Shown here in pieces: positions 4,225 to 22,290 of a stretch of 24,761 nt of DNA. How positions within the stretch are numbered: the first letter of the stretch is position 1; every line of letters begins with the position of its first letter. Source of the DNA: a virus. The translations under genes and the position numbers were made by a program. The stretch covers positions 1 to 24,761 of the IMG/VR virus record IMGVR_UViG_3300036845_000547, one strand, 5' to 3'. The notes below the pieces were generated by a model. That model did no database searches. It was given only the letters and a program-made list of their open reading frames with translations, and was not told where the DNA came from.

Positions 4225-6522
4225 TCACACGTTCGTTTCAAAGGTCTGGTTAATCATCGTCATCGACAGGATAGCGGCATCGCTCGCTTCTGTCTGTATC
4301 GAGATCCCGAGGAGTCTGCCGCTGTTCCCGAGGGGAATCGGACCGAACACGTCAAACCCGGAAGTCACTGGCAGAGAGACGGTCACGGCGGGCGAACTGT
4401 TCGTCTCGTTATCGCACGTCACTCTCAGGCTAATCGTGCTGCCTGTGAGGTTCTGTACGATCCCCAAAAGCCTCAGCATCTGTTTGGTGAAGTAGTATCC
4501 CGGAGTGGCCCAGAGTTTCGATTGTACCGTTTTCGTTACAGCCGTGCTTGGTTCGGTGAATAGAGGATAGATGCTTGTGCCGTCTGTTCCCCATGCGCTA
4601 AGAGCTGAATTGAACTTCTGCCCGGAAATATACGTCAGATTCAGGTTCTGGATTGCCGTAAACCAAATCTTGCCGTTCCACAACAGCAGTTTGTTGGTTC
4701 GCACCCCGGTCACCTGATCGATGATCGGAAGCAACAGCACGTAGACCCTGACCGATCCGAAAAGATCCGCGACGGCAGAGGAGTAATTATCCGTGTTGCT
4801 CGGCAGTGCGAAAGCCGGAAGTACGGTGTTGTAAATCCCGTCGAGTTGATCGCTGATCTTGGTCACTGCCCCGCCATAGGAGACATAGACGCCCGTGGGA
4901 TTGGCGAACACGATGTTGCGTTGATAAACCTGCGTCGAACTCGGCCACGGAGAGCCGGTTTGCGGATCGGTGTTCACAGTGGTGAACACCGTAGTAGCAA
5001 TGGGCGGATTCCCCGACGACGACGTGACGACACCCGAGATGTAATTCACCGCCGAATCGGCGATCAAATAGAGGAAGCCGTTCGCTTGTTTGAGCGAGTG
5101 ATATCCAACTTGAAGAAACGAATCGAGCGCCGGGAAAGCCCCCGCCCCATCTGATGGTCGGAAATCCGAGGGATCGCCAGGTGCGGAGAACACCGTCCGG
5201 TTTAACGGAGGAGGGACCGATGTAATCGGAGCTGCGCCATTGGTCACCCATACTCGCGAGAACGCTATCTCGATCGCTGTCCCGCTCACGCCGAATGGCA
5301 TCAATGAGACCGTCGCCGATGCCCCATCATTGCCTCCGGAGAACTGCACGAGCGCCACGCTGTACCCAAAGCCGGGATTTACGATCAGCAGTCCAGATAC
5401 CTGGCCGCCCGTTACCACGGGCTCGATTTGTGCTCCCGTGCCATCCCCGATGACGGTGACGACAGGATTGGTCAGATACCCCGTACCCCCGGAAATCTGC
5501 ACTGGCGAGATGATTTGACCGCCAGAAATCTCGACAACGCCGACGAATCCACTGCCTGCCGCGGTCGGATCGGTTACCGAGACGGTCGGCGGCGAAGTGT
5601 ACCCCAAGCCGCCACTGACGACGGTAATCCCCGTGATGACACCCGCCTGTGCCTGCAATGCAACGCTAGCCCCTGTCCCACCGCCTCCGGTTATGGTCGC
5701 ATAGCTGCTCGCCGAATACTGATGACCCCCGTTGACGACTTGAACGCCTGACACCGCCGCTCCGGGACCGATGCTGACGGTAAAGATAGCGGTGTTGTCC
5801 GATCCGCCTCCGGTGATCGATAGGACGGAGAAATCGTTGACGCCGAATCCATGACCGGGATTGGTGACTGTAATCTTGTCGATTGAGCCGTTTGCCAAGG
5901 TCGCCGAGAACGCGGCGCCGGTTCCACCTCCCGTGGTCATTAGGCTGAACGTCGGTGCCGAGCTGTAATTCATCCCCGAATTGGTGAGGGTGACTACCGG
6001 GGATAATCCGCCAGCGCCAAAGAGATTGATCCCATCCCACAGCCAATAACCGTTCATCTGAGCGGCAGAAAAGATCAGGTATTGCCCACCCCACGAAGAA
6101 AACCCGAGAATGTTGGAGGGATGTGTGATCGTCCCCGGTGGGGCGATTTGCACCACCGTCGTAGTGCCGCCAACCGCTCCGAATGCTTCTTGCAGTGAGC
6201 CGTCAGAGAGCAGGATCGCACAAACATAGGCGTCCTGAAGGACCGCCCAGCCGAACCAAACGATCGTCTCGACCCCAGGCGAGCCATTGGGAGGGGGGAC
6301 GGTGTAAAATGCCGCGCCGTTATCCCAGATCGTCCGCAGGAATGACGGTCCGAACGGCACCCATCCGTCGCAGATCGACATCTCCGTGTCTTTGATCGAC
6401 GGGCGCGGGACATGAGTGTTCAGTCCCTCGAAGACTTCAAACGGGATCGGAAACGGATTGGACGGGAACCCCGGAGTCTGGGGCGGCCGAGCAGGGAGAG
6501 AGGAGCTGCCGCGTTCAGACAT
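4225..6522 (-). CDS. Tail hub/nozzle-like structural protein with inserted GxGY beta-repeats
   Basis: 765 aa. Residues 1-170 and about 420-765 carry beta-propeller-like text typical of podovirus hub or nozzle proteins: FEGLNTHVPRPSIKDTEM near the N-terminus, then FSRVWVTNG, VFSAPGDPSDFRPSDGAGAF, ANGFLYLIADSAVNYISG and later blade-like strands. Between them, residues about 175-410 form at least six repeats of roughly 40 aa with the core (N/S)-(G/P)-G-x-(G/Q)-(Y/F)-x-x-x-P followed by a V-x-V/I strand and GGGTGA-type turns (for example SGGLGYTSPPTVSV, SGGTGYLTNPVVTV). This module also occurs in two other proteins of the window. The protein would close the portal-adaptor channel. Its ATG lies 19 bases after the upstream stop, behind a 10-bp tandem repeat, with no clear Shine-Dalgarno sequence. 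The family assignment is by resemblance. Confidence 0.7.
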   Translation of the reverse strand: MSERGSSSLPARPPQTPGFPSNPFPIPFEVFEGLNTHVPRPSIKDTEMSICDGWVPFGPSFLRTIWDNGAAFYTVPPPNGSPGVETIVWFGWAVLQDAYVCAILLSDGSLQEAFGAVGGTTTVVQIAPPGTITHPSNILGFSSWGGQYLIFSAAQMNGYWLWDGINLFGAGGLSPVVTLTNSGMNYSSAPTFSLMTTGGGTGAAFSATLANGSIDKITVTNPGHGFGVNDFSVLSITGGGSDNTAIFTVSIGPGAAVSGVQVVNGGHQYSASSYATITGGGGTGASVALQAQAGVITGITVVSGGLGYTSPPTVSVTDPTAAGSGFVGVVEISGGQIISPVQISGGTGYLTNPVVTVIGDGTGAQIEPVVTGGQVSGLLIVNPGFGYSVALVQFSGGNDGASATVSLMPFGVSGTAIEIAFSRVWVTNGAAPITSVPPPLNRTVFSAPGDPSDFRPSDGAGAFPALDSFLQVGYHSLKQANGFLYLIADSAVNYISGVVTSSSGNPPIATTVFTTVNTDPQTGSPWPSSTQVYQRNIVFANPTGVYVSYGGAVTKISDQLDGIYNTVLPAFALPSNTDNYSSAVADLFGSVRVYVLLLPIIDQVTGVRTNKLLLWNGKIWFTAIQNLNLTYISGQKFNSALSAWGTDGTSIYPLFTEPSTAVTKTVQSKLWATPGYYFTKQMLRLLGIVQNLTGSTISLRVTCDNETNSSPAVTVSLPVTSGFDVFGPIPLGNSGRLLGISIQTEASDAAILSMTMINQTFETNV

Positions 6523-6550
6523 CAGCAGTGATCAGCAGTGATCAGCAATG
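6521..6550. repeat. 10-bp tandem repeat at the fibre/hub gene junction
   Basis: Three head-to-tail copies of ATCAGCAGTG; the last has A for G at position 8. On the minus strand this reads TGCTGATCAC repeated, so the final Cys codon plus TGA of the upstream gene is duplicated twice before the hub ATG. It contains two TGATCA palindromes. It probably arose by slippage or end duplication and sets the spacing between the stop and the next start. Confidence 0.9.
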
Positions 6551-7846
6551 CACCATAATCCCGTTTATTACCACGACAGTAGCCGCGTTTATGGTCGTGC
6601 AATTCGCAGCGGTCGTCACGCCGCTACCACCATTGTTAACCTGAAGCATGTTACTATTCAGTAATATATTGCTGCTAAGGATTTCTAATGGTTCCACCAA
6701 AGAGTTCGCGTCGTTACGAGATTCAATGCTTGCGCCGCTCGACAACGTATTATTGCCGCCGATCTGAACAATTTTGTCTGTACTAGATCTTGCGACAACC
6801 CCGCCCGTCATAGTGGTTATCGGATAATTAAAATTGAACGCGGGATTCATAGCATTACCGAACATATTAGTGCCAAACTCCAGTTGCCCCTGGAACGCAA
6901 CGCCGGCAATGTAATTCCCCCAGAAAATGTCTTGGCTGTTCGTCGTCAACCCGCCCCCGCCATTGGGGACAAACGCCTTGGTCCCAATAATCGAAAACGT
7001 AGGGGTAGTTCCATTCAGCGTTGCGAGGAATTGACCCCACTTAATAGCTCCAGGGCTCCCGCTGAAATTTGGATAAGATAATGTAATTCCTCCGGTGTTG
7101 TTGTCTTGCACTACTGCGTTACCTGATATAAGCAACGCAGTTGCGACCGTATCAGTATAACTCCAAGATAAATCTAGTTCGTTTTGTATGAGCCGGTTGT
7201 GAGTCCCGGGTGGCTGAGCGACCCTAAATTCTCGATCAGAGATATTTGTGTTAATTCCCTCAACTCGCCCGCCATCAACATTTACCGCGCCCGTGCCAAA
7301 AAGAGATACCGCAAACGGCACCACTCCCGAGAACGGCTGATTCGCCAACACATAACCAGATACTCCCGCGACAATCGGCACAGTTGTACCGGGATTGGCA
7401 ACGCCCACTCCGCGAACGCCGTCATAATTGCCACCGCCAGCGGCCGGGAGCGGCAAACATGGCGCCGTGCAGAACGTAAACGCCAAAATCTGATCGGCGC
7501 TAAAAGTCGGATTGGTGATTCCAGCCAATGTCGCGCCGGTCGTCACTACTGCTCCCGTCTGATTATCGCTTATCTGTGCCGCGCCCTCTCGCAACAATGT
7601 CCCCACGGTATTGTTAAATGAAGTTATCTCAGCAATCGCTGTCACGGTCGGACCATTCACGTTGCCCGTGCCTTTTGTCGCGATCATGGCAGCAAGATTG
7701 TTGAGTCCTGACGCCGGCAGCGGGCAGCCGTCCACAAACGGCGGAGCCGAGATGTTCGGGTTCGGAGAGGGACACGCGCCAAATGCCGCGGAGGCGGTTG
7801 CGAGTAGGAACAGAGAAAGCGTGGGTGCAAGGAATTTACGAATCAC
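6542..7846 (-). CDS. Secreted-type fibre-like protein 2 (signal peptide, Cys-terminal)
   Basis: 434 aa from GTG 7846; GTG at 7855 or 7858 would add only a few residues. The N-terminus is a good Sec signal peptide: basic MIRKF, hydrophobic LAPTLSLFLLATASAAFG, cleavage near AFGA/C. The mature part starts CPSPNPNIS, then DGCPLPASGLNNLAA and TAIAEITSFNNTVGTLLRE. This block is shared with the upstream fibre-like paralog. The middle is a Gly/Asn/Ser/Thr-rich, strand-rich body without a recognised domain. It ends CTTINAATVVVINGIMVHC, a two-Cys cap resembling the ends of two neighbours. A host-exported, envelope-associated or virion fibre role is possible. An exported virion-operon product is unusual. 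The sequence does not prove which applies. Confidence 0.7.
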   Translation of the reverse strand: MIRKFLAPTLSLFLLATASAAFGACPSPNPNISAPPFVDGCPLPASGLNNLAAMIATKGTGNVNGPTVTAIAEITSFNNTVGTLLREGAAQISDNQTGAVVTTGATLAGITNPTFSADQILAFTFCTAPCLPLPAAGGGNYDGVRGVGVANPGTTVPIVAGVSGYVLANQPFSGVVPFAVSLFGTGAVNVDGGRVEGINTNISDREFRVAQPPGTHNRLIQNELDLSWSYTDTVATALLISGNAVVQDNNTGGITLSYPNFSGSPGAIKWGQFLATLNGTTPTFSIIGTKAFVPNGGGGLTTNSQDIFWGNYIAGVAFQGQLEFGTNMFGNAMNPAFNFNYPITTMTGGVVARSSTDKIVQIGGNNTLSSGASIESRNDANSLVEPLEILSSNILLNSNMLQVNNGGSGVTTAANCTTINAATVVVINGIMVHC

Positions 7847-7848
7847 GC

Positions 7849-9159
7849 TCAGCACCACGTTACAGTTCCGCCGTGCCCAGATGCAGACACTAATGTCCCA
7901 GCTGATCTGCCTGCACAACTTGACGGCATGGACGAGACAATCGTACCCCCAGAACCCTGACCGGAAATAATAATGTCTACGTTTGTGTCGGAACCTGCCG
8001 CATGAATCTGCGGCGCTACGCCGGTCGTGCCCGAAACTAATGATGCGTAATTTACGGTATTTCCTACCGCGACCATCGCCCCAGCAACGTGCGTTCCGCT
8101 ATCAGAATAGAAGAACAACGGTATATTCGTTCCGATAGAGGTATAGTTGCCGCTTGTCAAAAGCGTGCCAGCACCATTAATCAAACACCCCATCGAGGTA
8201 TTCAAGAAGCAATTAGACACGATGGTTCCGGCGAGATTGAGCGCGTTCCTAACAACGGTCCCGCCGGAAGACGCAACCAAATCCCCTCCAGTGGCAATAG
8301 GGTACTGACCATTAAAGTTAGAGAATAGGATTCCAACATTCCAACCTACAGCACCAGCGATGGAGCTGACGCCAAGAGCGGCTTCTATCGTTCCATGCAC
8401 GGCGTCGGTTCCCAACTCAACAAGAGTCCAGCCGAACTTGCCATAGACGGACGAACCGGTTTTAGCCGCTATGTTAATCTCGGCTCCCGAGAGTTCTAAG
8501 AGATTCGTCGCCCCAGAGTCTGCTAGCGCATATCCACCATATGTGAAGAATGCCCCTTGGGGACTGCCTCCCGTACCATTATCGCCGGCCGCCGCTTCTG
8601 CGTTGCCGGATATTCCAACATAGTTATGATTGGTATTGGATACTGATGTCGAAGAGGTTAGCAATACACCAACATTAGCACCAATCCTGCCGCCAGCCGC
8701 GCCACTTCCCCCGAAGTTGTCCTGAATGTTGAGATTAACGCCGAAATTTGGCCCCGGTACCGCCATCGTATCGGGGTTGTTGGAAATCTGATTGAGGTAG
8801 TACGAAACTCCACCACCTACCGTGCCGCCCGATGCTTGGAACACCTGTAGTCCACGCCCCAGACTGGCAGCTGGTATGGATAGGGTTAAGCCTGGTCCCG
8901 CGTCTTTCAGCAAAGTTCCAGTAAGATTATTAAACAACGCCACTTCTCCGATCGCGGTCGCCGTAGTCGGAGCAAACACATTACCCTTCGTCGCTATCGT
9001 CGCGGCAAGATTGTTCAAACCAGACGCAGGCAGAGGACATCCATCGATAAACGGATTCCCAGGAACTCCTGCTGAAATATTCGGATTAGGAGAAGGACAC
9101 GCCCCAAGCGCTGACGTCACAGAGCCAAACAGGAGAGCCCAGGAGATCAAGCCTTTCAT
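7849..9159 (-). CDS. Secreted-type fibre-like protein 1 (signal peptide, Cys-terminal)
   Basis: 436 aa from ATG 9159, which overlaps the preceding TGA by one base (TGATG). The signal peptide is MKGLISWALLFGSVTSALGA followed by Cys; LGAC also fits a lipobox, so a lipoprotein cannot be excluded. The mature N-terminus has CPSPNPNIS, DGCPLPASGLNNLAA, IATKG and a TAIGEVALFNNLTGTLLKD block shared with the downstream paralog. The body is Gly/Asn/Ser-rich and likely beta-structured (FGGSGAAGGRIGANVG, GISGNAEAAAGDNGTGG). It ends SCAGRSAGTLVSASGHGG, then TVTWC. It sits between an adaptor gene and its own paralog. It may be a fibre, an appendage or an exported host-envelope modifier. Confidence 0.7.
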   Translation of the reverse strand: MKGLISWALLFGSVTSALGACPSPNPNISAGVPGNPFIDGCPLPASGLNNLAATIATKGNVFAPTTATAIGEVALFNNLTGTLLKDAGPGLTLSIPAASLGRGLQVFQASGGTVGGGVSYYLNQISNNPDTMAVPGPNFGVNLNIQDNFGGSGAAGGRIGANVGVLLTSSTSVSNTNHNYVGISGNAEAAAGDNGTGGSPQGAFFTYGGYALADSGATNLLELSGAEINIAAKTGSSVYGKFGWTLVELGTDAVHGTIEAALGVSSIAGAVGWNVGILFSNFNGQYPIATGGDLVASSGGTVVRNALNLAGTIVSNCFLNTSMGCLINGAGTLLTSGNYTSIGTNIPLFFYSDSGTHVAGAMVAVGNTVNYASLVSGTTGVAPQIHAAGSDTNVDIIISGQGSGGTIVSSMPSSCAGRSAGTLVSASGHGGTVTWC

Positions 9160-10178
9160 CAGTAGCGTCCGTAGGGGTTGTTGATCCGTGATGGCCGCGC
9201 CCATGCCGAGTATTTGTGCGAATAATCATTGAACATTTCCCGGTAATAACGAGCACTGTTCAGATTCTGGAGCTCTTCGTAGCAAAGCGCTGCCGCAACC
9301 CACGGGACCGAGTCCGTCCAAGGTTCGGGAAGCGCCTCGGGGCTTTCGTCCGATTCCAGATCGGCGGGCAGACACAGCGCGTCCACATCGAACTGATAGG
9401 CTGTGTTTGGGATCGGATAGAATAACAGGCTACCAGTCGAGCCCTGCTTGAGTTGCGTGTACATCGTCGGCACGTAGAGATATTGCCGAGGATATTGCCG
9501 GATGAATGCTTGATAAACAGAGAACGGATAGTAAGGAAGACTATACCTATAGTTGGAATAAATGATAGACACATCCAGCACAGCGAACACAGACTTGATG
9601 CCTGGCAATGTCAGGATAGGGAAATCTTCAAAATCGTAGGTCTCTTGCTGGAACGCCGTAATGCTCAGCGGTTCGGTCTGCACCGCGAGCATTGCGCCGA
9701 CTCCCAGTCCCGTTGGAACGGGAGGGGATGCGATCGACCCGAGAACGTCAGGGCCACCGAGAATGGAGACGCCCAGGATGAACACCTGAGCCTCTTCGGG
9801 TGTGGCGAAGTCGATTATTGATGCGGTCGGCTGGAAATACCCAGCTCCCCCAAACGTCACAGAGACGTTGGTGATTTGCCCGCTGATTTGCTGCGCGACG
9901 GCTGTAGCCTGCGCTCCCCCAGGATAGGGAAGTTGCCCGTTGGGGCTATCGGGCGGCGAGATCACTACGACCGGGTTCTGGTACATCGCGCCGGGGTTCA
10001 GGATGTCGATCTCGACGATCGCCCCCGAGGTCGGCGGAACCCTCCTGATAGATTGCGAGCGGAGCGCAACTTCCCGACGCGCACGGTTCACATAATCCCA
10101 AATGTCGGGCTCGTCGATGTGCCCCATCTTCGGGTCGCGCAGGAAGCGCCGCACTTGCTTGGCGTAATCAAACAGCAT
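9159..10178 (-). CDS. Connector/adaptor protein, paralog C, with GxGY-repeat insertion
   Basis: 339 aa from ATG 10178. An upstream in-frame extension has poor protein character and is rejected. Residues 1-45 are the typical adaptor N-terminus (YAKQVRRFLRDP, IWDYVNRARREVALRSQS), comparable to the SU10-type or gp6-like adaptors that bind the portal. Residues about 52-165 are an insertion with the same beta-repeat as the hub protein (NPGAMYQNPVVVIS, GGAGYFQPTASI). Residues 170-339 return to the adaptor core: KQGSTGSLLFYPIPNTAYQF, LCLPADLESDESPEALPEPW, TDSVPW and a helical tail ending NNPYGRY. The block around 245-295 aligns by eye with the two other adaptor paralogs in this window. The role is to bridge portal and tail hub. 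Confidence 0.7.
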   Translation of the reverse strand: MLFDYAKQVRRFLRDPKMGHIDEPDIWDYVNRARREVALRSQSIRRVPPTSGAIVEIDILNPGAMYQNPVVVISPPDSPNGQLPYPGGAQATAVAQQISGQITNVSVTFGGAGYFQPTASIIDFATPEEAQVFILGVSILGGPDVLGSIASPPVPTGLGVGAMLAVQTEPLSITAFQQETYDFEDFPILTLPGIKSVFAVLDVSIIYSNYRYSLPYYPFSVYQAFIRQYPRQYLYVPTMYTQLKQGSTGSLLFYPIPNTAYQFDVDALCLPADLESDESPEALPEPWTDSVPWVAAALCYEELQNLNSARYYREMFNDYSHKYSAWARPSRINNPYGRY

Positions 10179-10306: not shown

Positions 10307-10567
10307 TCAAACAGCATCGGGTTCCGTCACCTTCTCCCGCATGCTCGTGACCTGATGGCGCTGGCGGTCCTGTTGCCTCGCTAGGCGAGATCCGCGGCGG
10401 TGTGAATTATCGTGGTGATACTTGCACCAGCCGTTTACCTGGATGTCGCCGTCGACGATCTCGCAAGAGTAAGCGCGCTCTACCTCAAACCATTTGCACT
10501 CGCCGCAGCGGTCGCCGTCTGACTTGGCCTTGCCGTAGTCAGCTTCCTGTTTGGTCTTTTTAGCCAC
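10307..10567 (-). CDS. HiPIP-like four-cysteine protein
   Basis: 86 aa from GTG 10567, overlapping the end of adaptor B by eight bases, with GGCGAGG just upstream. After a Lys-rich start come C-x2-C (DRCGECKWFE), then C-EIVDGDI-x3-GWC. This is close to the high-potential iron-sulfur protein signature C-x(6-9)-hydrophobic-x3-G-(Y/W)-C-x2-aromatic, with His in place of the last aromatic. HiPIPs bind one 4Fe-4S cluster through four Cys. Here the Cys spacing (2, 10, 12) fits a very small version. The basic tail is HRRGSRLARQQDRQRHQ. A structural Fe-S or zinc role within the connector region is an inference. No signal peptide, unlike bacterial HiPIPs. Confidence 0.7.
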   Translation of the reverse strand: MAKKTKQEADYGKAKSDGDRCGECKWFEVERAYSCEIVDGDIQVNGWCKYHHDNSHRRGSRLARQQDRQRHQVTSMREKVTEPDAV

Positions 10568-11279
10568 CGCCTCGCCCTTGGCTGATGCCGTACCGATTGG
10601 CGTTGGCGAGGTCCGGGCCCTGAGATTGGATGTGGGGCAGCACTTGCGAGGTCGCCCCGGCACGAGCGCGTCCCATCATCTGCTCGTAGCGTTGCAGCAT
10701 GTCATCGGGTTTGGTGTCTGGTGCCGGCCTGGTCATCATCGCGAGCCATGCGGCATAGAACGACACCGGAATCGTCCATAGAAGCGGGATCGCTTCGACA
10801 GTCGTGTCGTCAACTAACGGGACCGGCAGGCAAACCGTATCAAGATTGAGTACGTAATCGGTGTCTAGGAGGTTGATCCACAGGGTTCCGGAAACCCCCT
10901 GACCCTGCTGAGCGAACTCTCTCGGCTCGCCCACCGCCGGCACAGGCTGATTGAGAGTGTAGAGTTGATACCAAGACCACGCTCGGGGATAGACGAGTTT
11001 GTGCCCAACGTCCCCGATGCTGAAACTCCCTGTCCGCACATTCAGGACTTGCCCAAACCCGGCCGTGACATTGGCGGCGGTAATCACGATCTGCGAGAAC
11101 GGATACATCTGAGAAGCGGCAGAAACGGCAAGCGACGAATAGTCCACCAGACATTCGGATTCCCCCGCCACCTGATTGCGCGCCTCATTGATGTAGTTGA
11201 TCAAATCGCCGTCGCGCAGCCAATTGAACTTCTCGTCGCCGAGCAGGAGTCGAGTGCGCTGTTGATACGCGACGAGCAT
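10560..11279 (-). CDS. Connector/adaptor protein, paralog B
   Basis: 239 aa from ATG 11279, with GAGGA ten bases upstream; a longer frame to 11351 adds Ser-rich text lacking family character. The N-terminus has YQQRTRLLLGDEKFNWL, DGDLINYINEARNQVAGESE, the usual SU10-type adaptor helix pair. The core is EFAQQGQGVSGTLWINLL, LDTVCLPVPLVDDTTVEAIP and SFYAAWLAMMT, matching adaptor A almost position for position (QQGQG, LP-x-PL-(I/V)-DD-(S/T)-T-x-EAIP, FYAAWLAMM). The C-terminal helix RYEQMMGRARAGATSQ is also shared. It would form a ring under the portal. Having two or more such genes is unusual; their division of labour is unknown. Confidence 0.75.
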   Translation of the reverse strand: MLVAYQQRTRLLLGDEKFNWLRDGDLINYINEARNQVAGESECLVDYSSLAVSAASQMYPFSQIVITAANVTAGFGQVLNVRTGSFSIGDVGHKLVYPRAWSWYQLYTLNQPVPAVGEPREFAQQGQGVSGTLWINLLDTDYVLNLDTVCLPVPLVDDTTVEAIPLLWTIPVSFYAAWLAMMTRPAPDTKPDDMLQRYEQMMGRARAGATSQVLPHIQSQGPDLANANRYGISQGRGGG

Positions 11280-11317: not shown

Positions 11318-11728
11318 ATGAGCGAGATGAAAGAGCGAGTTGCGCGTGCACTGTGTGTTGATGCGCATGGGGGCAACCTTAGCCCTGACGCGATCCTGAC
11401 TTGTGGGCCAGCATCGGAAGTTGGTCAGCCGGCGTGGAAACTTTTTGAGAAACGCGCCCATGCCGCAATCACCGCAATGCGCGAGCTGACTGAAGAGATG
11501 CTGAACGCCGTTAGCTGGACTGAAGGCGTAGGCGACGGCGGATGGACAGAAAGAGCACCATTTTCTGAGGAATACGAAGCCGCTATCAACGCCGCGCTTG
11601 AAGAGAACAAACATACGGAGAATGCGACGAGCACGGCCGTCAAAAATCCCAGTCTCCCACCAGAGGTGGACGACGTAACTCGTGCGACTTACCAACGCAT
11701 GATCTCCGAGATGTCGAAACGCGGCTAG
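11318..11728 (+). CDS. Plus-strand accessory gene inside the adaptor cluster
   Basis: 136 aa. ATG at 11318 is chosen among three consecutive in-frame ATGs because GGAG lies six bases upstream. The start SEMKERVARALCVDAHGG, then GQPAWKLFEKRAHAAITAMRE and LTEEMLNAVSW resemble a family of small phage and plasmid proteins of Alphaproteobacteria with a (E/R)VARA-C... W-x-x-x-E-x-x-A-x-x-A-I-x-AMRE-x-T-x-EM pattern and unknown function. It is the only plus-strand gene in the connector region: 38 bases separate its start from that of adaptor B, and its TAG overlaps that of the opposing gene in a shared CTAG. It is probably an accessory (moron-like) gene. Confidence 0.75.
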   Translation: MSEMKERVARALCVDAHGGNLSPDAILTCGPASEVGQPAWKLFEKRAHAAITAMRELTEEMLNAVSWTEGVGDGGWTERAPFSEEYEAAINAALEENKHTENATSTAVKNPSLPPEVDDVTRATYQRMISEMSKRG

Positions 11729-12069
11729 CAATGCGTGACGACGCCGCTGGTCACGACAAGTGTTGCCAGGGTGACCGTGTTCGCGGCGCACGAAACGCCC
11801 GCCACACTGCTCGTCAGTGTGGTAGCCGAACCGGCGATCGGAACTTGACCGGCAGTTAACCCGGTAATCCCGCTTACGCTGCCGCCGACAATATTGATCG
11901 GGAACCCATGCGTCGCATCGACGCCCGTATAAGGTGGTTGCCCAAACAAGACGAGGTTGGAATTTGGCGGCTGCTGCGCCCACGCTGGATCGCTTATCTC
12001 GGCGTATCGCCAAAACACGAGGACTAGCGCAGCCGCGCACAACGCTGAAATGACAAACGCTCTTTTCAT
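11725..12069 (-). CDS. Short exported protein with fibre-like C-terminus
   Basis: 114 aa from ATG 12069; GTG at 12078 is an alternative. Residues 1-20 (MKRAFVISALCAAALVLVFW) are a signal or anchor sequence; AWA at the end of SDPAWA is a plausible signal-peptidase I site. The rest is fibre-like: LVLFGQPPYTGVDATHGFPI, NIVGGSVSGITGLTAGQVPI, AGSATTLTSS. It ends SCAANTVTLATLVVTSGVVTHC in pieces SCAANTV and TSGVVTHC, the two-Cys cap also seen in the two larger exported proteins. It follows adaptor A directly. It may be a reduced member of that group, or a donor of its C-terminal cap. Confidence 0.7.
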   Translation of the reverse strand: MKRAFVISALCAAALVLVFWRYAEISDPAWAQQPPNSNLVLFGQPPYTGVDATHGFPINIVGGSVSGITGLTAGQVPIAGSATTLTSSVAGVSCAANTVTLATLVVTSGVVTHC

Positions 12070-12070
12070 C

Positions 12071-12736
12071 TCATCCACCCTGCTGTAGTCGGAGCCCGCG
12101 ATCCGCAGGCATGCTCGACGGCAACTCGCTCGGGGTTGACCCCATTCGCGCCAGTCGCATCATCACCTGTTCATACCGGGAAAACATCATGTCGGCGTCT
12201 GCTTGCCGCTGGGCGTTCATCATCGCGAGCCACGCCGCGTAGAACGGCACCGCGTCAGTCCAAGGGTAGGGAATCGCTTCCGGTGTACTGTCGTCAATCA
12301 GCGGGGTAGGCAAGAACACGGCATCAAACGATGCCGTGGCCGACGCAATCGGAACCGGAGCAAACACCAACGATCCGGCCGTTCCCTGACCCTGTTGAGC
12401 GACGACCTTGGGAACCCCTACGCCGGCTCGCCCAAGATAATAAGCTGCAAACCATTCCCACGGGCGAACATCTAGCGGCGAAGCGCCAATCGATCCCGAC
12501 CGAATCGCTATCACCGTCGGGGCATTCGATATGCCGGAAAGGCTGGAAAACGGATATCCCTGGATCAAGGCCGTCAGAGTGAGCAGGGTTTCTCCCCGGA
12601 TGCACTCTCCCTCGGCCGCTACCTGAAGCCGCGCCGAATTGATGTTGGCGTCGAGTTGCGGCGTCGAGATTAACGGAGTGACGGACGTGGCCGCTTGGAA
12701 CAGCTGGAGGGTCGCTGTCTCATAGGCTGTGAGCAC
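12071..12736 (-). CDS. Connector/adaptor protein, paralog A
   Basis: 221 aa from GTG 12736, preceded by GGAGG four bases upstream. The N-terminal helix (ATSVTPLISTPQLDANINSA) is shorter than in the other paralogs. Then come RLQVAAEGECIRGETLLTL, a Trp-rich turn RPWEWFAAYYLG, VVAQQGQGTAGSLVFAPVPI, FLPTPLIDDSTPEAIPYPW, TDAVPFYAAWLAMMN and a helix MFSRYEQVMMRLARMG. QQGQG lies at 114-118 and the LP...EAIP...FYAAW block at 142-173. It resembles the head-tail adaptors of short-tailed phages and lies closest to the capsid gene, so it may be the ancestral adaptor. The functional split among the three copies is not known. Confidence 0.75.
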   Translation of the reverse strand: MLTAYETATLQLFQAATSVTPLISTPQLDANINSARLQVAAEGECIRGETLLTLTALIQGYPFSSLSGISNAPTVIAIRSGSIGASPLDVRPWEWFAAYYLGRAGVGVPKVVAQQGQGTAGSLVFAPVPIASATASFDAVFLPTPLIDDSTPEAIPYPWTDAVPFYAAWLAMMNAQRQADADMMFSRYEQVMMRLARMGSTPSELPSSMPADRGLRLQQGG

Positions 12737-12754: not shown

Positions 12755-13597
12755 TCAGAGGGACTGGATCGTCACGACGTCGTTGGCAGCAGCGACCACC
12801 GTAGCCGGATTCGTCGTCGCCGTGGCACCGCTTCCTACACCATTCACGGTGAGGGTCGGCGCGGTCGTAAGCAATTGCCCGCCGTTCACCAGCAGAGCCG
12901 CCGTCAACGTCCCGGCTCCGGTCAAGGCAACAGTGAAGGTTGCCGGGACAATCGCCGTGCTCGGATCGGTCGGATCGCTGTAGAGAATAACCGGAGGAGC
13001 AACCAGATAGCCCGCCCCAGCGGTCCGGATCGTAATCGACGCCACAGTCCCTGCTGCACCACCTGTGCCGAGTGCTGCGGTTGCGGTCGCCTGAACACCG
13101 GGCGGAGGCGGATTGGGAATGAACACGATCGGCGGTTTCGTGTACCCAGAGCCTGGCGTTACCTGCGTGAAGGTGCCAAGCGCGCCGCCGACGATCGCCA
13201 CCCATGTCGAGTTTCCGGTCCCCGCCGTGATCGTCGTCGAGGACTGGACATAGAGAGTGCCGGCGGCGGTAACGATCCCGCCATACCACCAATCCGACAG
13301 ATTGGCGATGCGCCAGGAAAATCCGTCTGACCGAACGTACATGCCCCACGCTGCACCGGGGCCGAGCAGATTGGTCCACTGCTGCGTGACCGGGTTCAGC
13401 CATTGGAGAGCCGAGATCGAACCGGTGACCGAAACGATCCACTGACCGGCCGGGATGTAGAGCGTTTCCGCAGGACCAAGCGAAACGCCATTAGACGGTC
13501 CGGTGAATGGCGCGATCCCCTGCAGGAACTGGTGCGGCGCATACGGCTCCTGCGGGAGCGGCAAGCCTTGACCGGGACCAGCGATAAACTGAGGCAT
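12755..13597 (-). CDS. Virion protein with GxGY beta-repeats
   Basis: 280 aa, next after the major capsid gene, with GGGAAAGAG before the ATG. Residues 1-45 are Pro/Gly-rich (GPGQGLPLPQEPYAPHQF). Residues 45-135 form a compact Trp-rich domain (IPAGQWIVSVTGSISALQWL, NPVTQQWTNL, WRIANLSDWWYGG). Residues 145-255 carry three copies of the repeat GxGYxxPPxVxI: GSGYTKPPIVFI, GAGYLVAPPVIL and a degenerate NGGQLLTTAPTLTV. The same module appears in adaptor C and the hub-like protein. Position after the capsid gene suggests a head decoration, head-tail completion or fibre-attachment protein. No known family is recognised for the N-terminal domain. Confidence 0.7.
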   Translation of the reverse strand: MPQFIAGPGQGLPLPQEPYAPHQFLQGIAPFTGPSNGVSLGPAETLYIPAGQWIVSVTGSISALQWLNPVTQQWTNLLGPGAAWGMYVRSDGFSWRIANLSDWWYGGIVTAAGTLYVQSSTTITAGTGNSTWVAIVGGALGTFTQVTPGSGYTKPPIVFIPNPPPPGVQATATAALGTGGAAGTVASITIRTAGAGYLVAPPVILYSDPTDPSTAIVPATFTVALTGAGTLTAALLVNGGQLLTTAPTLTVNGVGSGATATTNPATVVAAANDVVTIQSL

Positions 13598-13607
13598 GCT
13601 CTTTCCC

Positions 13608-14645
13608 TTAGAACGACGCGGCGCCGACGCCTACGACTTGTGCATTAGCGACGGGCTTGGCCGTCAAAACATTGTAGCCCGTGACCACAACGCCCTGTTG
13701 TCCGATCTGACCAAGCGGCACCAAAGAGTAGAACCCGCTGAAATCGAACATCGCATCTTCGGATGCGTACATATTCGTGTAGCGGGCATTCACGAAGAAG
13801 ACGGACCCCTTGGGGCAGAAGTGATCAGCGTAGATCGGCACGCCAGCGACATTGAGGTTCGGGAACGAGGAACGAACAGGTGTCCCCATCGCATATTCGC
13901 GTCCGGGATCTTTGAAGATCGTCTCGGTGCCGACGAAATCATTGTTGAGCGTCGCAAAATCGCCCGGATACATGACGCCAAAAGTCGGCGCCTCTCCGCC
14001 CGAAGCATTGACGATTTGCAGGATCTGGTTCGACATCGTGGCGCGCGTGTACCCGGCGGTTCCGGGGAGACCGGTGCCGGTTGCGGCCGTGTAGTACTGG
14101 CTCTGCCACGCAGTGTTGCCGGGAGCATTGCGGTTGATGCCGCCATACACCGCGACATTCGTGCCATTGTCGAACGCGTCCACAAACGAGTTCGGCAGCA
14201 ATGTGTTAGCGGTGTTGTTCGTAAAGACCAGACCGCCCATGTTTTGGACGGTGACTGACCACACATCGTTCATCCGCGCTTTGAGGATCGAGATTTCCCG
14301 ATCCGTCGCCTGGATGATCGTCTCACCGAAGGGGAGAGGAACCGGCACGACCCAATAGGCCAGCGGGAACTGCGCGTTCTGGATACCAGGCGTGATGACC
14401 GGGGAATTGAACCCGCCGCCGTACCCGACGAACTGCCCCTGCACCATGCTGTTCATCTGGGTCGGGATCGTGACCTGAGACAGACCACCAGCTGCCTTCT
14501 GCGCGCCGCCCAATAAGTAGAACAATGTGGGTGTCGCAAAATAGACTTGAACGAATAATCGAGGGACGAACGCGCGCCTCGTGGTCGCTGTCAACTCGGT
14601 AAAAAGGCTCCCTGTCGGGACGACGCCTTGGCCTGGAAGGGGCAT
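13608..14645 (-). CDS. Major capsid protein, HK97-like
   Basis: 345 aa with GAGAG-type ribosome site before ATG 14645. The order of elements fits an HK97-fold capsid subunit without a protease domain: a short N-arm (GSLFTELTATTRRAFVPRL), E-loop-like segment with Gly/Ser/Thr (TPTLFYLLGGAQKAAGGLSQ), long spine-helix region (FGETIIQATDREISILKARM), P-domain strands and the A-domain (FGVMYPGDFATLNNDFVGTE, VAGVPIYADHFCPKGSVFFV), ending with beta strands. It is preceded by a scaffold-type gene and followed by connector genes, as is normal. It builds the icosahedral shell. The assignment rests on size, position and motif style, not on a database match. Confidence 0.85.
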   Translation of the reverse strand: MPLPGQGVVPTGSLFTELTATTRRAFVPRLFVQVYFATPTLFYLLGGAQKAAGGLSQVTIPTQMNSMVQGQFVGYGGGFNSPVITPGIQNAQFPLAYWVVPVPLPFGETIIQATDREISILKARMNDVWSVTVQNMGGLVFTNNTANTLLPNSFVDAFDNGTNVAVYGGINRNAPGNTAWQSQYYTAATGTGLPGTAGYTRATMSNQILQIVNASGGEAPTFGVMYPGDFATLNNDFVGTETIFKDPGREYAMGTPVRSSFPNLNVAGVPIYADHFCPKGSVFFVNARYTNMYASEDAMFDFSGFYSLVPLGQIGQQGVVVTGYNVLTAKPVANAQVVGVGAASF

Positions 14646-17212: not shown

Positions 17213-17507
17213 TTTTCGCAAATCCCCATTCGAGGATCAGTTAGCGCAACTTCTTCGCCAGCGCTATAGATCAGATTTCTATCAAGAGCTTGATGAATTA
17301 ACCGACGCAATCGTCGTGTTTGAATTGAAACGGCTGCGCCGCTGGCGAAAACTCAACTTTCTAATTAAGCCGATACGATCTCTCAAGAGACGATACCAGA
17401 GACTTATTCGTCGCGAAGCGCAAATCGAAGCTAAAGCTATCGCCGATGCCCCGAATGCCCCGCCAAAACCCTCGCTCGTTCGTCGGGAGGAAGAGACTCC
17501 AGCATAG
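17196..17507 (+). CDS. Basic helical protein overlapping the portal gene antisense
   Basis: 103 aa with AAGGTG about seven bases before the ATG. It is rich in Arg, Lys and Leu (FELKRLRRWRKLNFLIKPIR, SLKRRYQRLIRREAQIEAKA) and likely helical, with DNA or RNA binding possible. The last 71 bases run antisense to the portal 3' end. This gene closes the plus-strand island. No terminator with a T-run is seen after it. The antisense overlap may reflect insertion of the island or selection for a compact layout. Not a recognised family. Confidence 0.6.
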   Translation: MLRQFNFRKSPFEDQLAQLLRQRYRSDFYQELDELTDAIVVFELKRLRRWRKLNFLIKPIRSLKRRYQRLIRREAQIEAKAIADAPNAPPKPSLVRREEETPA

Positions 17508-19134
17508 CCGCCTGTTGCTTCTCTTTCTCCTTCAGACGCTGAATAAGTTTGTCTTTATGCTGGAAAGGCAGATCCTCGATCGCCGACTCGCCGGTGATGA
17601 ACCCGGCTTTCACGCCAAACGAAATCAGGTTCGCGTTATCGTCATGGTAGATCGGCGAGGACGAGTGCGAGTCTACCGAAACCCGACGATCGTCGGGTAA
17701 ACTATTTAGCAGAAATTCCCCTTCCTCCTTGGTTTCGGCATCCGCCCAATAGACTTTGGCGTCTTTGGCTTCCATCGCCGAAAAGGTGGCGTCACCGCGT
17801 TCAGCGCACTGCCTCTCGACCAAGAGCGAGCGGTCGCGCAGATGCGGGCTCGCCATCCGCTTGAGGGTGTCGGCATGGACCCCGGCGCGCACACCAGGCT
17901 CGCCCTCACCCGACAGGATATTCGCGAACCCTGAGACGCGATCCATCATCCACAGGATCTCCTTTATCAGCGGGACGAACTCGGGAGGGAGTTTCGGCGT
18001 CAGATCGACCGCCGAGGAACCTGGAGGCATGGACATGAACCCAGACGAGCGACGCTTTACATACTCCTCATCCTGCAACCCATCCATGCCTGGGAAGGCG
18101 TAGAACCCATCGGCCTGATTGCCGACAATTCGTTTGATGTCGTCGAGGTGTGTAGTCAGCCACTCCTGCAGCATCATCAGATCGGTGATTTCCGATCGGC
18201 CCCAGAAATAGTCGGTGACCCAGTTCGGCTGAATCAAGCCATAGGGTAGGGTGTCGGGAGCGAACAGATTACAATATTTATAGCGCGGGGCGATCAGAAT
18301 ATCCGGCTCGCAGATTTGCACCGTCGTCCAGTCGTCATGCCGTTCATCATCCTTGATCCACACCTCGTGCAGCGGAAACAATTCAGCCGCGACCGTGGGT
18401 CCGAGTGTGGCGAAGTTCGGATCGTTGGTGAGCTGCACCACTCCACCTGGCTGGGGTCGAGTGGCGTTCTGCAAACTCACATCGAGCACGGCCGTCGATA
18501 GAACTTGGTGCATGAACGAGGTCGGAATGCCGACGCCGGATTCCTTGGTTGACGAAGCGATAATCCTGCGGAACAGCTTCTCGGCATCAGGAAGATTGCG
18601 AACCCGCCGCCACACTTCAGGCTTTGTCAGGTAGACCGTCTCCATGACGGCTTCCTGATCGGAAAGCGCGTTGACTCTTTCATTGTAGACGGCAAAGGAC
18701 CACGGCTGGACGAGACGCGCACCAACGTCGTGCTTGCCACCATTCTCTTTCGAGAGATTCTTCATAATGCAAGCACCGTAACTCAACCCCTCGAACGTGC
18801 CTTGACCGAACAGGATGTCGATGTTCTTCCGCTCCCATTCTCTGCTCAACGCACGAGCCGCCATCGCTCCTTTGTCTGTGATTTCCTTTGGGTAGTGCTG
18901 CTCGAAATCAACCTGAAACCGCAGATCGGCTGGACTCATTATGTGCGAGGCGGTGCGCTGGAGATGGGAGTAGAGAACGTTCGCCAGAGCCAACGGTCCT
19001 GCGGCCCTCCCTGTCTCCCTCCATTGACCATACGTGCGATAGGCCGATGCCCGCTCGCTTTGCGATGCCCGGCAAACATCGATGATGTCGAGGACTTGTT
19101 TGGTGAGGTCTTTGACGTTATCAGCAAGGATCAC
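17437..19134 (-). CDS. Portal (head-tail connector) protein
   Basis: 565 aa from GTG 19134, three bases after the preceding stop; the overlapping ATG reads into TGA at once. Size and composition fit podovirus portals: an N-terminal helical region (LTKQVLDIIDVCRASQSERA), the RAAGPLALANVLYSHLQRTA segment, strand-rich wing (PNFATLGPTVAAELFPLHEV, APRYKYCNLFAPDTLPYGL), stem helices (YFWGRSEITDLMMLQEWLTT) and a C-terminal helical crown ending KLIQRLKEKEKQQAAMLESL. Twelve copies normally form the DNA channel at the capsid vertex. It follows the terminase, as expected, but is separated from the scaffold and capsid genes by an opposite-strand island. Confidence 0.85.
   Translation of the reverse strand: MILADNVKDLTKQVLDIIDVCRASQSERASAYRTYGQWRETGRAAGPLALANVLYSHLQRTASHIMSPADLRFQVDFEQHYPKEITDKGAMAARALSREWERKNIDILFGQGTFEGLSYGACIMKNLSKENGGKHDVGARLVQPWSFAVYNERVNALSDQEAVMETVYLTKPEVWRRVRNLPDAEKLFRRIIASSTKESGVGIPTSFMHQVLSTAVLDVSLQNATRPQPGGVVQLTNDPNFATLGPTVAAELFPLHEVWIKDDERHDDWTTVQICEPDILIAPRYKYCNLFAPDTLPYGLIQPNWVTDYFWGRSEITDLMMLQEWLTTHLDDIKRIVGNQADGFYAFPGMDGLQDEEYVKRRSSGFMSMPPGSSAVDLTPKLPPEFVPLIKEILWMMDRVSGFANILSGEGEPGVRAGVHADTLKRMASPHLRDRSLLVERQCAERGDATFSAMEAKDAKVYWADAETKEEGEFLLNSLPDDRRVSVDSHSSSPIYHDDNANLISFGVKAGFITGESAIEDLPFQHKDKLIQRLKEKEKQQAAMLESLPPDERARVLAGHSGHRR
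17681..17698. repeat. 18-bp perfect palindrome inside the portal gene
   Basis: ACCCGACGATCGTCGGGT is its own reverse complement and could form a 7-bp stem with a GATC loop. It encodes LPDDRR in the portal. It lies 174 bases after the end of the plus-strand island. No T-run follows on the plus strand; TTT follows on the minus strand. Confidence 0.85.
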
Positions 19135-19311: not shown

Positions 19312-19892
19312 TTCTTGTTCAGCCTCCCCTCCTGTTCTACCGCGCGAGCGATCGAAGCATGGCTCCCCACAACCCTGTCTCTGGTCGAGGCGCCGGCATG
19401 ATGGAATACAGCTGGTCTGCCGGTCGTCGGATCCACATGGGCTGCGGCGGCGTATTCTATCCCCGTCGCCCCCGCCATAGGCGCATAGCCTCCCCCGATC
19501 GGCTGCGCTGCCCCTTGGTTCAGCCGCATGAACTCGCTCACATAGTTCGGGGGAGGGGAATATTTCGCAGCGACCTCACCCTCGCGCTGGTTGTCGTGCA
19601 GATCGGTGATCTTGGTATGGCTGTAGTCGGACGCGGAACCGCCGCCGTGTTGGGCCATCATTTCCATCCGCGCCTCGGAAGATCTCTCCATCTGCCGATA
19701 GACCTGATCCTGCCCCTTGCCGAGTTGCGTGCCGATTCGCGGGGCCTGGGGAACGAACACAGGCTTCTCGCCGATCATCGACGCGTGGCAGAGTTCGCAT
19801 TCGTCGGGCGGGGGGGAGTCATTCGGATGGTGCAGATGTTTGAATATGCCGCCGCAATCGGGGCATCGATATCGCCGGAAGAATGCCATCAT
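19308..19892 (-). CDS. Zinc-ribbon protein of the packaging module
   Basis: 194 aa. The N-terminus holds a zinc ribbon, YRCPDCGG ... DECELCH, two C-x2-C pairs about 20 residues apart, after a basic start MMAFFRRYR. The remainder is low in predicted structure (YSPPPNYVSEFMRLNQGAAQ, PIGGGYAPMAGATG) with one helix around EARMEMMAQHGG and a basic end. It is joined to the upstream gene by an ATGA overlap. A second ATG directly follows the first. Location between terminase and portal suggests a packaging or portal-assembly accessory. I do not know the family. Confidence 0.7.
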   Translation of the reverse strand: MMAFFRRYRCPDCGGIFKHLHHPNDSPPPDECELCHASMIGEKPVFVPQAPRIGTQLGKGQDQVYRQMERSSEARMEMMAQHGGGSASDYSHTKITDLHDNQREGEVAAKYSPPPNYVSEFMRLNQGAAQPIGGGYAPMAGATGIEYAAAAHVDPTTGRPAVFHHAGASTRDRVVGSHASIARAVEQEGRLNKK

Positions 19893-20374
19893 CGGCTCTT
19901 TCCGGCTTCCTTCACGGCATCCCAGAATTTATTCTCAGCCTGAGAACCTTCGGCTACCACCGTAGCGGCACATCCTGAATTCTCAGGCTGAGAGGCCGTA
20001 GCGGGCAGAGCCGCCAGTGTTCCGGCTCCTCTCTGTCGCTTACGGGCCAGGGCTCGGGCTTGCGCCCTTTTGTGATTCCGGCGACGCCGTTTGAGAACAT
20101 CGGCCACGGCATCGTCAGTCCACTCGTCGAGGAATCGTTCGTCTCCGGTGACAGAGGCATGATATCCCGCGAGGAATAGTCGAGCGAGATCAAAAATCGT
20201 TCCAGGTTGATGATGCGCATGGGCGGCTGGCCCCATGCCGAGCGTCCGAAGAATTTCTTCCTTGGGCGTGCCGCCCCAGATGGCAAAGCCTTCCTGACAC
20301 GTATCTGTCTCAAGCTTACGTAGCGCATCTACGAACGGGTGTTTTTGTTCTACGATCACCGTCTTCTCGCCCAT
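19889..20374 (-). CDS. Hypothetical protein downstream of the large terminase
   Basis: 161 aa, overlapping the terminase 3' end by 19 bases. The N-terminal 80 residues look folded (EKTVIVEQKHPFVDALRKLE, GTIFDLARLFLAGYHASVTG). They are followed by a strongly basic helix (DVLKRRRRNHKRAQARALAR), which could contact nucleic acid, and a low-complexity tail containing two SQ(P/A)EN units 16 residues apart. No family is recognised. Position suggests a terminase or packaging accessory. Confidence 0.7.
   Translation of the reverse strand: MGEKTVIVEQKHPFVDALRKLETDTCQEGFAIWGGTPKEEILRTLGMGPAAHAHHQPGTIFDLARLFLAGYHASVTGDERFLDEWTDDAVADVLKRRRRNHKRAQARALARKRQRGAGTLAALPATASQPENSGCAATVVAEGSQAENKFWDAVKEAGKSR
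19932..19946. repeat. Palindrome TTCTCAG-C-CTGAGAA, copy 1
   Basis: A perfect 7-bp inverted repeat around a single base. A near-identical element (TTCTCAGGCTGAGAG) sits at 19980-19994, 48 bases away centre to centre. Both lie inside the gene following the terminase and encode SQ(P/A)EN. Confidence 0.85.
19980..19994. repeat. Palindrome TTCTCAG-G-CTGAGAG, copy 2
   Basis: The arms differ by one base, and 14 bases are inverted-complementary to copy 1 at 19932-19946. Together the two copies could pair as a larger hairpin in RNA or act as paired protein-binding sites. Confidence 0.8.
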
Positions 20375-22290
20375 CTCGGCCGTCCCATCGCTTGCCGCTG
20401 CGCCAGGGAACGCTCAACCTGCTTGACTTTGAAGAAATTCGCAAGCTGGAATTGCCGAAAGAGCTGATACTGGTCAGCAACTGAAAGCGCCCGCTTCGCC
20501 ACGTCTGCGGCCTTGGTGCGGTTTCCCGCCATCAGTCCGCGCTGGACTCGCTCTTCCCAGCACCGCCCACCAAGGGCAAGAGTAAAGATCCGGTCGTCGT
20601 GTTTCTTCCCCTCGGCCTTGATCGAATCGCCGTCTCGAGCGATTGAGCGGGCTTCCTCAAGTGTTTCCTGGCTACGCACCAACATCATCCCGTTATGGAT
20701 GAAATCACGAACACGCTCCATGATCGCGACCTTCAACTGCGTAGTTGTCTTCCAGTGGTAGGAGTGACCGGATGTCATGCTATCGGAGCGCGTGTAAATA
20801 TACTGTCTGGTATTGTTCACCATGTCTCCGATGCCCCGGTCCCGTGCGGCGGCAGCGTAATAGCCCGTGCGGATCGACCTTCGCAACTGCCCCATCTCGC
20901 GCCACACCGCCTCGCCAGGTCCGTTCAATTCGACTATCTCATAAACCGCCGAGCCGGAATAAAGCCCATAGTAGGCTCCGAGGGACACGATCAACCAAGC
21001 GAATTGGTGCGTCGGCGTCGAGGCCGAGGCGTACTCGCAGACTTGTTCAATTTGATCGGCATAGCAGCGGAGAACTTCAATGGCGCTGCGATCGTTCTTC
21101 TCGTCGTGCCCAAATGCAGGATCTGCGGCTATAACATAGGTCGCATCAGGCTGCGGTTCTTCCCACAGCTTCAACTGGCACTCCCGCCACGTCCGGGCGG
21201 GCTCGATCCTCGACGTGAAGAAGTCCACTCCAGGCCAGAACTTGAAGGCCTGATATTTGTGCGGAACCGCTTGCGCCATTCTTTCGGAGAGCTTGACCGA
21301 ATCGAAGAACGTCGAGCCGGTAGCCATGAAACACTCGTCTTCGGTCCACGGCTGCTCTTGGAGCTGCATGCTGTCTTCGGGATCGTCTTTGTCGCGATCC
21401 CGTGCCGGGTCCATCTTCCGGCGGTACCACGCCAACTGCTCGCGGCTGACCTCTACGCCGTACTGTTTCTTGACCTCGTAAATGCGCTTGAGTTCGTCAT
21501 CTGTGGGCTCAGGACTCCCGTACCTCTCCCACATCGGGGAACCGAAAGGGATAATCTGAGTTTCTTTGTCGTACCACCCAAGGAAGCAAGTTCTTTGATT
21601 CAAGTCATCGGCCAGAGCTTCTTGCCACATTTCATGCCAGGAATTGAATCCTCGACCAGTCGACTCCTTAATGTAAAGTCGCCTTGGATCAAATTCCGCC
21701 AGTGATTGCTTGAGAGCTACTATTCCCTCTTCGTTATCCCACGAGCATAACTCACTTGCCAGAAGCAAGTTTATTCCGCTAGACCTCCCCAGCACCCCCG
21801 AAGATTTGGATGTGCGAACCCCTGCCGACATGAACCTGAGCAACGACCCGGCGGCACCGCCCTCGCCCTCTAGGGTCATCATGTAGCGGTTCATCGTGCG
21901 AATGCGCGGGAACTTAACCGAGCGCGGCAACCCTTGGATCATCGCCTCGATTTCAAGCCGCGCCTCTTCCTTGTGACTGTCCGTATCGAACACCATGGCG
22001 CCGCGCATCCCTTCGTGGATGCCGACCCAAAACACGCCTAGCGATCGCGCTTCCGTCGTAACGCCCAACTGGCGAGCCTTTAGAAAGTTGAAATCATGGA
22101 CATCATCAGCCAGCCCGTCCCAAATTGTCCGCAAGAATTTCTTTTGAGAGTTGTAGCGGTTCTGCGCAAGGAAGGTGCGGCCCGTTTCTTTGGAATCGAA
22201 GACTACCTGAGAGGTGAAGATCTCATAGGCTTCGCTGTACGCTTCGACCTTTGCCGAGTTCCAGCCGCCTGTTGCTGCTAATGCGCTCAA
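20356..22290 (-). CDS. terL: Terminase large subunit (packaging ATPase and nuclease)
   Basis: 644 aa, the normal size. The ATPase domain shows a Walker A-like KARQLGVTT at 71-79 (no Lys in the loop, as in several terminase groups with KARQ-x-G-x-(S/T)T), a Walker B-like INLLLASELCSWDN at 173-186 and the coupling motif KESTGRGF at 208-215. The C-terminal RNase H-like nuclease domain shows VIAADPAFG with Asp390, then VYEIVELNGPG near 450 and KKHDDRI with Asp565/566, the expected acidic triad. It pumps DNA through the portal and cuts the concatemer. The start overlaps the preceding gene's stop as ATGA. No small terminase can be named with certainty among the short genes upstream. Confidence 0.93.
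   Translation of the reverse strand: MSALAATGGWNSAKVEAYSEAYEIFTSQVVFDSKETGRTFLAQNRYNSQKKFLRTIWDGLADDVHDFNFLKARQLGVTTEARSLGVFWVGIHEGMRGAMVFDTDSHKEEARLEIEAMIQGLPRSVKFPRIRTMNRYMMTLEGEGGAAGSLLRFMSAGVRTSKSSGVLGRSSGINLLLASELCSWDNEEGIVALKQSLAEFDPRRLYIKESTGRGFNSWHEMWQEALADDLNQRTCFLGWYDKETQIIPFGSPMWERYGSPEPTDDELKRIYEVKKQYGVEVSREQLAWYRRKMDPARDRDKDDPEDSMQLQEQPWTEDECFMATGSTFFDSVKLSERMAQAVPHKYQAFKFWPGVDFFTSRIEPARTWRECQLKLWEEPQPDATYVIAADPAFGHDEKNDRSAIEVLRCYADQIEQVCEYASASTPTHQFAWLIVSLGAYYGLYSGSAVYEIVELNGPGEAVWREMGQLRRSIRTGYYAAAARDRGIGDMVNNTRQYIYTRSDSMTSGHSYHWKTTTQLKVAIMERVRDFIHNGMMLVRSQETLEEARSIARDGDSIKAEGKKHDDRIFTLALGGRCWEERVQRGLMAGNRTKAADVAKRALSVADQYQLFRQFQLANFFKVKQVERSLAQRQAMGRPRWARRR

Follow-up and report, generated by a model that had tools for sequence, protein, structure and literature searches.

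Tandem tail-fibre-like proteins with predicted Sec leaders in the virion operon of a soil-type phage, and a candidate class of exported fibres in uncultured phages

Tailed-phage particles are, in the textbook account, assembled wholly in the cytoplasm, and the question raised by this locus is why two adjacent genes inside a virion operon should begin with what appear to be Sec signal peptides. The window (the whole 24,761-nucleotide stretch analysed, IMG/VR record IMGVR_UViG_3300036845_000547) is a 24.8 kb record of a soil-type virus of bacteria, in which the virion genes are read on the minus strand in the order probable terminase, portal, capsid, three adaptor-type paralogues, fibA, fibB, a 765-aa virion protein and further genes; no tRNA was found in the window. 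We infer a phage of the short-tailed type. The features used here are listed below, with a slash marking a predicted cleavage site and SPI denoting signal peptidase I.

20356-22290, minus strand: probable terminase large subunit (PHROG 24361 terminase, E=6e-4, and position)
17437-19134, minus strand: portal protein (30% identity over 93% to the annotated portal of MW202825)
13608-14645, minus strand: major capsid protein (PHROG 9953 major head protein, E=4.8e-12)
11725-12069, minus strand: small fibre-like protein of 114 aa, the third with predicted export; leader ...AEISDPAWA/QQPP, ending in CAANTVTLATLVVTSGVVTHC, a C-terminal Cys hairpin (sequence)
9159-10178, minus strand: adaptor/connector-type protein, one of three paralogues, translationally coupled to fibA (PHROG 399 structural protein, E=1.5e-5; paralogue and sister-phage matches)
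7849-9159, minus strand: fibA, fibre-like protein of 436 aa predicted to be exported; ATG start codon, six cysteines in its mature part (open reading frame and sequence)
9100-9159, minus strand: fibA predicted signal peptide MKGLISWALLFGSVTSALGA, SPI site ALG/A or LGA/C (in-house rule, weak alone, plus alignment to homologues with stronger leaders)
8983-9099, minus strand: fibA conserved mature N-terminal cassette with Cys pair, CPSPNPNISAGVPGNPFIDGCPLPASGLNNLAATIATKG (20 of 21 core residues as in fibB; also in L003 and L004)
7852-7917, minus strand: fibA C-terminal Cys hairpin CAGRSAGTLVSASGHGGTVTWC, up to the stop codon (sequence)
6542-7846, minus strand: fibB, fibre-like protein of 434 aa predicted to be exported; GTG start codon, six cysteines in its mature part (open reading frame and sequence; PHROG 32740 tail fiber)
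7775-7846, minus strand: fibB predicted signal peptide MIRKFLAPTLSLFLLATASAAFGA (rule score 4.23)
7670-7774, minus strand: fibB conserved mature N-terminal cassette CPSPNPNISAPPFVDGCPLPASGLNNLAAMIATKG (alignment with fibA and relatives)
6545-6601, minus strand: fibB C-terminal Cys hairpin CTTINAATVVVINGIMVHC, up to the stop codon (exported fibres of L049 and L080 end in the same pattern)
4225-6522, minus strand: 765-aa virion protein downstream of fibB, gap 19 nt (related to 662-aa proteins of MW202825 and MW202753)

At 9159 the fibA start codon and the adaptor stop codon overlap (TGATG), and a gap of 2 nt separates the fibA stop from the fibB start, which places both genes within the head-tail operon. 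The virion operon holds three adaptor-type paralogues (9159-10178, 10560-11276 and 12071-12736, minus strand), two of which are directly followed by a predicted exported gene. Separately, a glycine/tyrosine-rich repeat matching PHROG 701 and PHROG 460 is common to three different virion proteins (4225-6522, 12755-13597 and 9159-10178, minus strand).

The original prediction, made from the letters of this DNA, had described two adjacent proteins of 434-436 aa spanning 6542-9159, and this is exact; the near-identical mature start that it had read in both is likewise present in all its parts (CPSPNPNIS, DGCPLPASGLNNLAA and TAI-x-E-(I/V)-x-x-FNN). The two proteins align with E=5e-20, and past about residue 90 the match is weak and gappy and nothing more, as expected from the differing middles that had been proposed. 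The core block differs at a single residue out of 21, yet 14 of the 20 shared residues are encoded by different codons and 8 of 12 fourfold sites differ; since the silent sites are so strongly diverged, the conservation is old and selected at the protein level, and a recent tandem duplication is rejected. Both proteins close with a C-x(15-20)-C pattern, similar ends being found in a sister-phage fibre and in L049 and L080. Residues 53-294 of fibB match a tail fiber family (PHROG 32740, E=2.7e-8), and a pea-lectin match of the same protein (E=0.033) was taken as chance. No named domain was found in fibA, whose middle (residues 91-326) has homologues in other exported fibres, with E values as low as 2e-16; its AlphaFold2 model reached a pLDDT of 43.5, too low for use.

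Both proteins exhibit the n-, h- and c-regions and AXA-type site of a Sec/SPI leader, fibA weakly when taken alone. Under an in-house rule scoring these regions fibB reached 4.23, the sister copies 5.32 and 4.04, and the equivalent in the more distant phage L004 4.22; fibA, at 3.04, is weak and falls short of two genes that are membrane-like and not fibres; the case for its leader was therefore made from homologues whose leaders are stronger. The leaders had been called clear in both proteins, which stands for fibB and, for fibA, rests on its homologues. The leader of the 114-aa protein at 11725-12069, for which no homologue was found in the sister phage, was missed by the rule owing to charged residues within it. 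Neither this protein nor the C-terminal Cys hairpins had figured in the original prediction.

The nearest relative, which we refer to as the sister phage (contig IMGVR_UViG_3300036791_000775), shares ~80-95% amino-acid identity with the window in the flanking genes. At the corresponding position it encodes a tandem pair of exported fibres, 580 and 530 aa long, which resemble those of the window over the first 60-75 residues only. Closely similar flanks around fibres that are alike only at the N-terminus are what receptor-binding proteins, with a constant anchor and a variable remainder, usually show. The sister copy of fibA matches PF12708 (pectate-lyase-type/tailspike beta-helix) at 27.2 bits, against a curated Pfam cut-off of 27. 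Two more leader-bearing genes lie at the end of this contig, one opening with a cassette of a further type (VTPGH), so that leaders are present on all four recognised fibre-like genes of the sister; no non-exported spike candidate was found on this contig, which is a fragment. The cassette of fibA and fibB recurs in L004 behind a clear AXA site (SWA/QVGC), and the combination of leader and two-Cys cassette is thus common to the window, the sister and L004. The fibre-like genes of MW202825 and MW202753, which have a homologous head-tail module, lack a leader and have few cysteines.

Relatives were also found well beyond these phages. A further motif, NACASTAFV, searched as a DNA pattern recovered 56 viral contigs, and a second scan, blind to both Cys positions, recovered 55, of which 50 have both cysteines of the NACAST cassette (C1 and C2), five have neither and none is mixed. 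A leader was called in 50 of these 55 contigs (Fisher p=6e-6 for the blind-scan set after dereplication, some relatedness remaining in the sample). One match, L014 to a Nitrospira genome, proved to be a non-phage locus when seen in context and was set aside as chance. The third cassette, VTPGH, is found both with and without a leader, and the two kinds adjoin in L130, which suggests one docking partner for both. Complete exported VTPGH forms have 6, 6, 8, 10, 10, 10, 10, 14, 18 and 20 cysteines, a leaderless 153-aa L130 protein (0 Cys) that a script had listed as exported being left out, and leaderless forms have 0, 0, 0, 0, 0, 1, 1, 4, 8 and 18. Two Cys-rich VTPGH proteins, in L105 (18 Cys) and L134 (8 Cys), have no recognisable leader, so cysteines and export do not always go together.

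If these proteins fold in an oxidising compartment, complete disulfide pairing would predict even cysteine counts. Among open reading frames of at least 200 aa with at least two cysteines on the motif-chosen contigs, those with a leader were even in 70 cases and odd in 9 (p=4e-13), whereas the leaderless ones on the same contigs were even in 120 and odd in 104. Thirty-nine leader-bearing proteins whose first residues fell outside the motif filter, a few of them motif proteins that had slipped through it, divided 35:4. With the class parity of 70:9 and the even counts of 6, 6, 14 and 8 in individual fibres, the case for paired cysteines is statistical rather than chemical. Parity, the coupling of C1 and C2 and the relatives all add to the export that was originally proposed, and export and oxidative folding of fibA, fibB and their class are, as predictions, well supported computationally.

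That fibA, fibB and their class are tail fibres or spikes is indicated by the domains of the class and, in the window and the sister, by a kept N-terminal anchor with a variable C-terminus and by the position in the tail operon. Pfam searches of 54 members returned PF12708 nine times, the S74 chaperone three times, and an endosialidase and a K1-lyase once each; many PHROG matches were to tail spike, tail fibre and depolymerase families, and L122 matches a solved long tail fibre distal subunit. The fibA middle recurs in several NACAST fibres behind a different N-terminal cassette, so cassettes and middles appear to have been swapped within the exported class. Both cysteines of a C-terminal module, LP.C...PVFC.G..W, are present in four exported fibres (one protein is counted twice among these), but a leaderless fibre with the module has neither. 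Together the sequence tests support a Sec-type leader, oxidised folding, a fibre or spike identity for the class and a shared cassette with exchangeable middles.

We propose, with a probability of roughly 0.52, that fibA and fibB are adsorption proteins of tail fibre or spike type which are exported by Sec, oxidised in the periplasm and docked on virions at lysis. They would be made late along with the virion genes and leave through Sec, the leader probably being cut off by signal peptidase I; in the oxidising periplasm they would fold, and the N-terminal Cys pair and the C-terminal Cys hairpin would close as disulfides. The mature fibres, probably trimeric, would wait there until lysis mixes the compartments and may then bind to virions by the conserved cassette at their N-termini, the same anchor with different middles giving two receptor or polysaccharide specificities per particle. 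The model predicts cleaved, disulfide-bonded protein on virions.

An unlikely but serious alternative is that fibA and fibB are exported and never join virions. They would then act in the periplasm, at the cell surface or, once the cell has lysed, as free proteins; soluble depolymerases are one example, and receptor binders preventing both re-adsorption to debris and superinfection another. The periplasm is by itself the end point of Sec export, several class members resemble polysaccharide-degrading enzymes, and phage lambda offers a precedent in Lom, which like fibA and fibB is a signal-peptide protein inside a tail gene block, encoded between the tail spike and fibre genes (PMC12309495), so a leader-bearing gene among tail genes can go to the host membrane. 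Lom, however, is an outer-membrane beta-barrel with a host-envelope function and, unlike fibA and fibB, is not fibre-like. Docking is favoured on two grounds: in the window as in the sister, a single anchor serves two fibres whose middles differ, and non-exported proteins also carry the VTPGH cassette; the sister contig, fragment that it is, also offers no non-exported spike to take the place of the exported ones. Of the two, virion attachment following lysis is our preferred reading, at close to even odds, and a periplasmic or soluble role comes second. Two ideas had originally been offered, and fibres with a reused leader has become the better one, given the tailspike, S74-chaperone and endosialidase domains of relatives and the fibA middle behind another cassette; a pure host-envelope or superinfection-block role is less likely.

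It is improbable that there is no real export. On that reading the hydrophobic N-terminus would serve as a tag, for fibre trimers or for membrane/assembly, and disulfides would form once the cell has lysed, as may be the case in phage Milano. Milano virions do carry extensive disulfides, the short tail fibre having three listed Cys pairs (PMC10811340), so virion disulfides alone are no proof of export, and some leaderless VTPGH proteins are Cys-rich. Yet the leader sequences diverge whilst their n-, h- and c-regions and AXA sites are kept, leaderless cassettes are mostly Cys-free, and the even excess is confined to proteins with a leader. That they are lipoproteins anchored in the host envelope by the first cysteine is very improbable indeed: the junctions of fibA, fibB and sister fibB are lipobox-like (LGA/C, FGA/C), but the lipobox is not conserved, nor is Cys+1 invariant, in sister fibA (ALV/C, from ASAL/VC) and L004 (SWA/QVGC), the first Cys of the NACAST family lies several residues past an AXA/Q site, and the first Cys appears to be half of a pair, since counts that include it are even and its use as a lipid anchor would make them odd.

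Docked, exported fibres would be a new variant of known tail fibres, made by an unusual assembly route. They share with known spikes and fibres (PF12708 beta-helix, PF13884 S74) the domains of the class, the position in the virion operon, a conserved N-terminus with exchangeable middles and the tandem pair, but the spikes and fibres of isolated or annotated phages that we examined are leaderless and Cys-poor, whereas the exported class has a cleavable-type Sec leader and paired cysteines. For example, the NACAST-type TAF-V repeat of Rhizobium phage P10VF, Pseudomonas phage Touem01 and Dinoroseobacter phages (PTxPTxxxGDNxTxxATTAFV) matches the NACAST cassette, but in these isolates it is Cys-free and sits inside leaderless tail fibres, whilst in the exported class it forms the mature N-terminus with two coupled cysteines. 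Milano, a phage of a soil alphaproteobacterium, is like the class in its fibre and spike disulfides; the available part of its description (PMC10811340) mentions no export, and many of its bonds link different tail subunits, unlike those in our model. Exported relatives (the window cassette and the exported NACAST and VTPGH forms) were found neither among 50,697 isolated-phage records nor in plasmids, and the literature covered, which leaves out most subscription journals, held no description of exported or secreted tail fibres or of such a class.

Exported, disulfide-bonded fibres in the window and related uncultured phages would be at odds with the view that assembly is confined to the cytoplasm. 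If the reading is right, host Sec and disulfide-forming (Dsb-type) machinery would be part of phage morphogenesis, virions may become competent for host binding only at lysis, and gene callers and virion-protein predictors may mislabel such genes as host secreted proteins. More tentatively, and at somewhat less than even odds, there may be a large class of uncultured tailed phages in which capsid and tail come from the cytoplasm, disulfide-bonded spikes or fibres from the periplasm, and the two are joined only at lysis; the exported fibre class is common enough for testing in a cultured system.

Other small leader-bearing proteins occur in these phages. A phage with a window-type cassette (L095/L096, contig IMGVR_UViG_3300036798_000409) encodes two at 19698-20538, with 3 and 9 Cys. 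Eight contigs carry, close to the NACAST fibre gene and in its orientation, a leader-bearing protein of ~190 mature residues (AQVN.VPQVGV...FCI...CLNLNGVS), mostly with two Cys (L017 2977-3618, L020 5729-6358, L028 1-657, L029 2973-3611, L067, L068 4560-5207, L080 and L021, where the copy looks truncated), which is a possible exported partner of the NACAST fibre.
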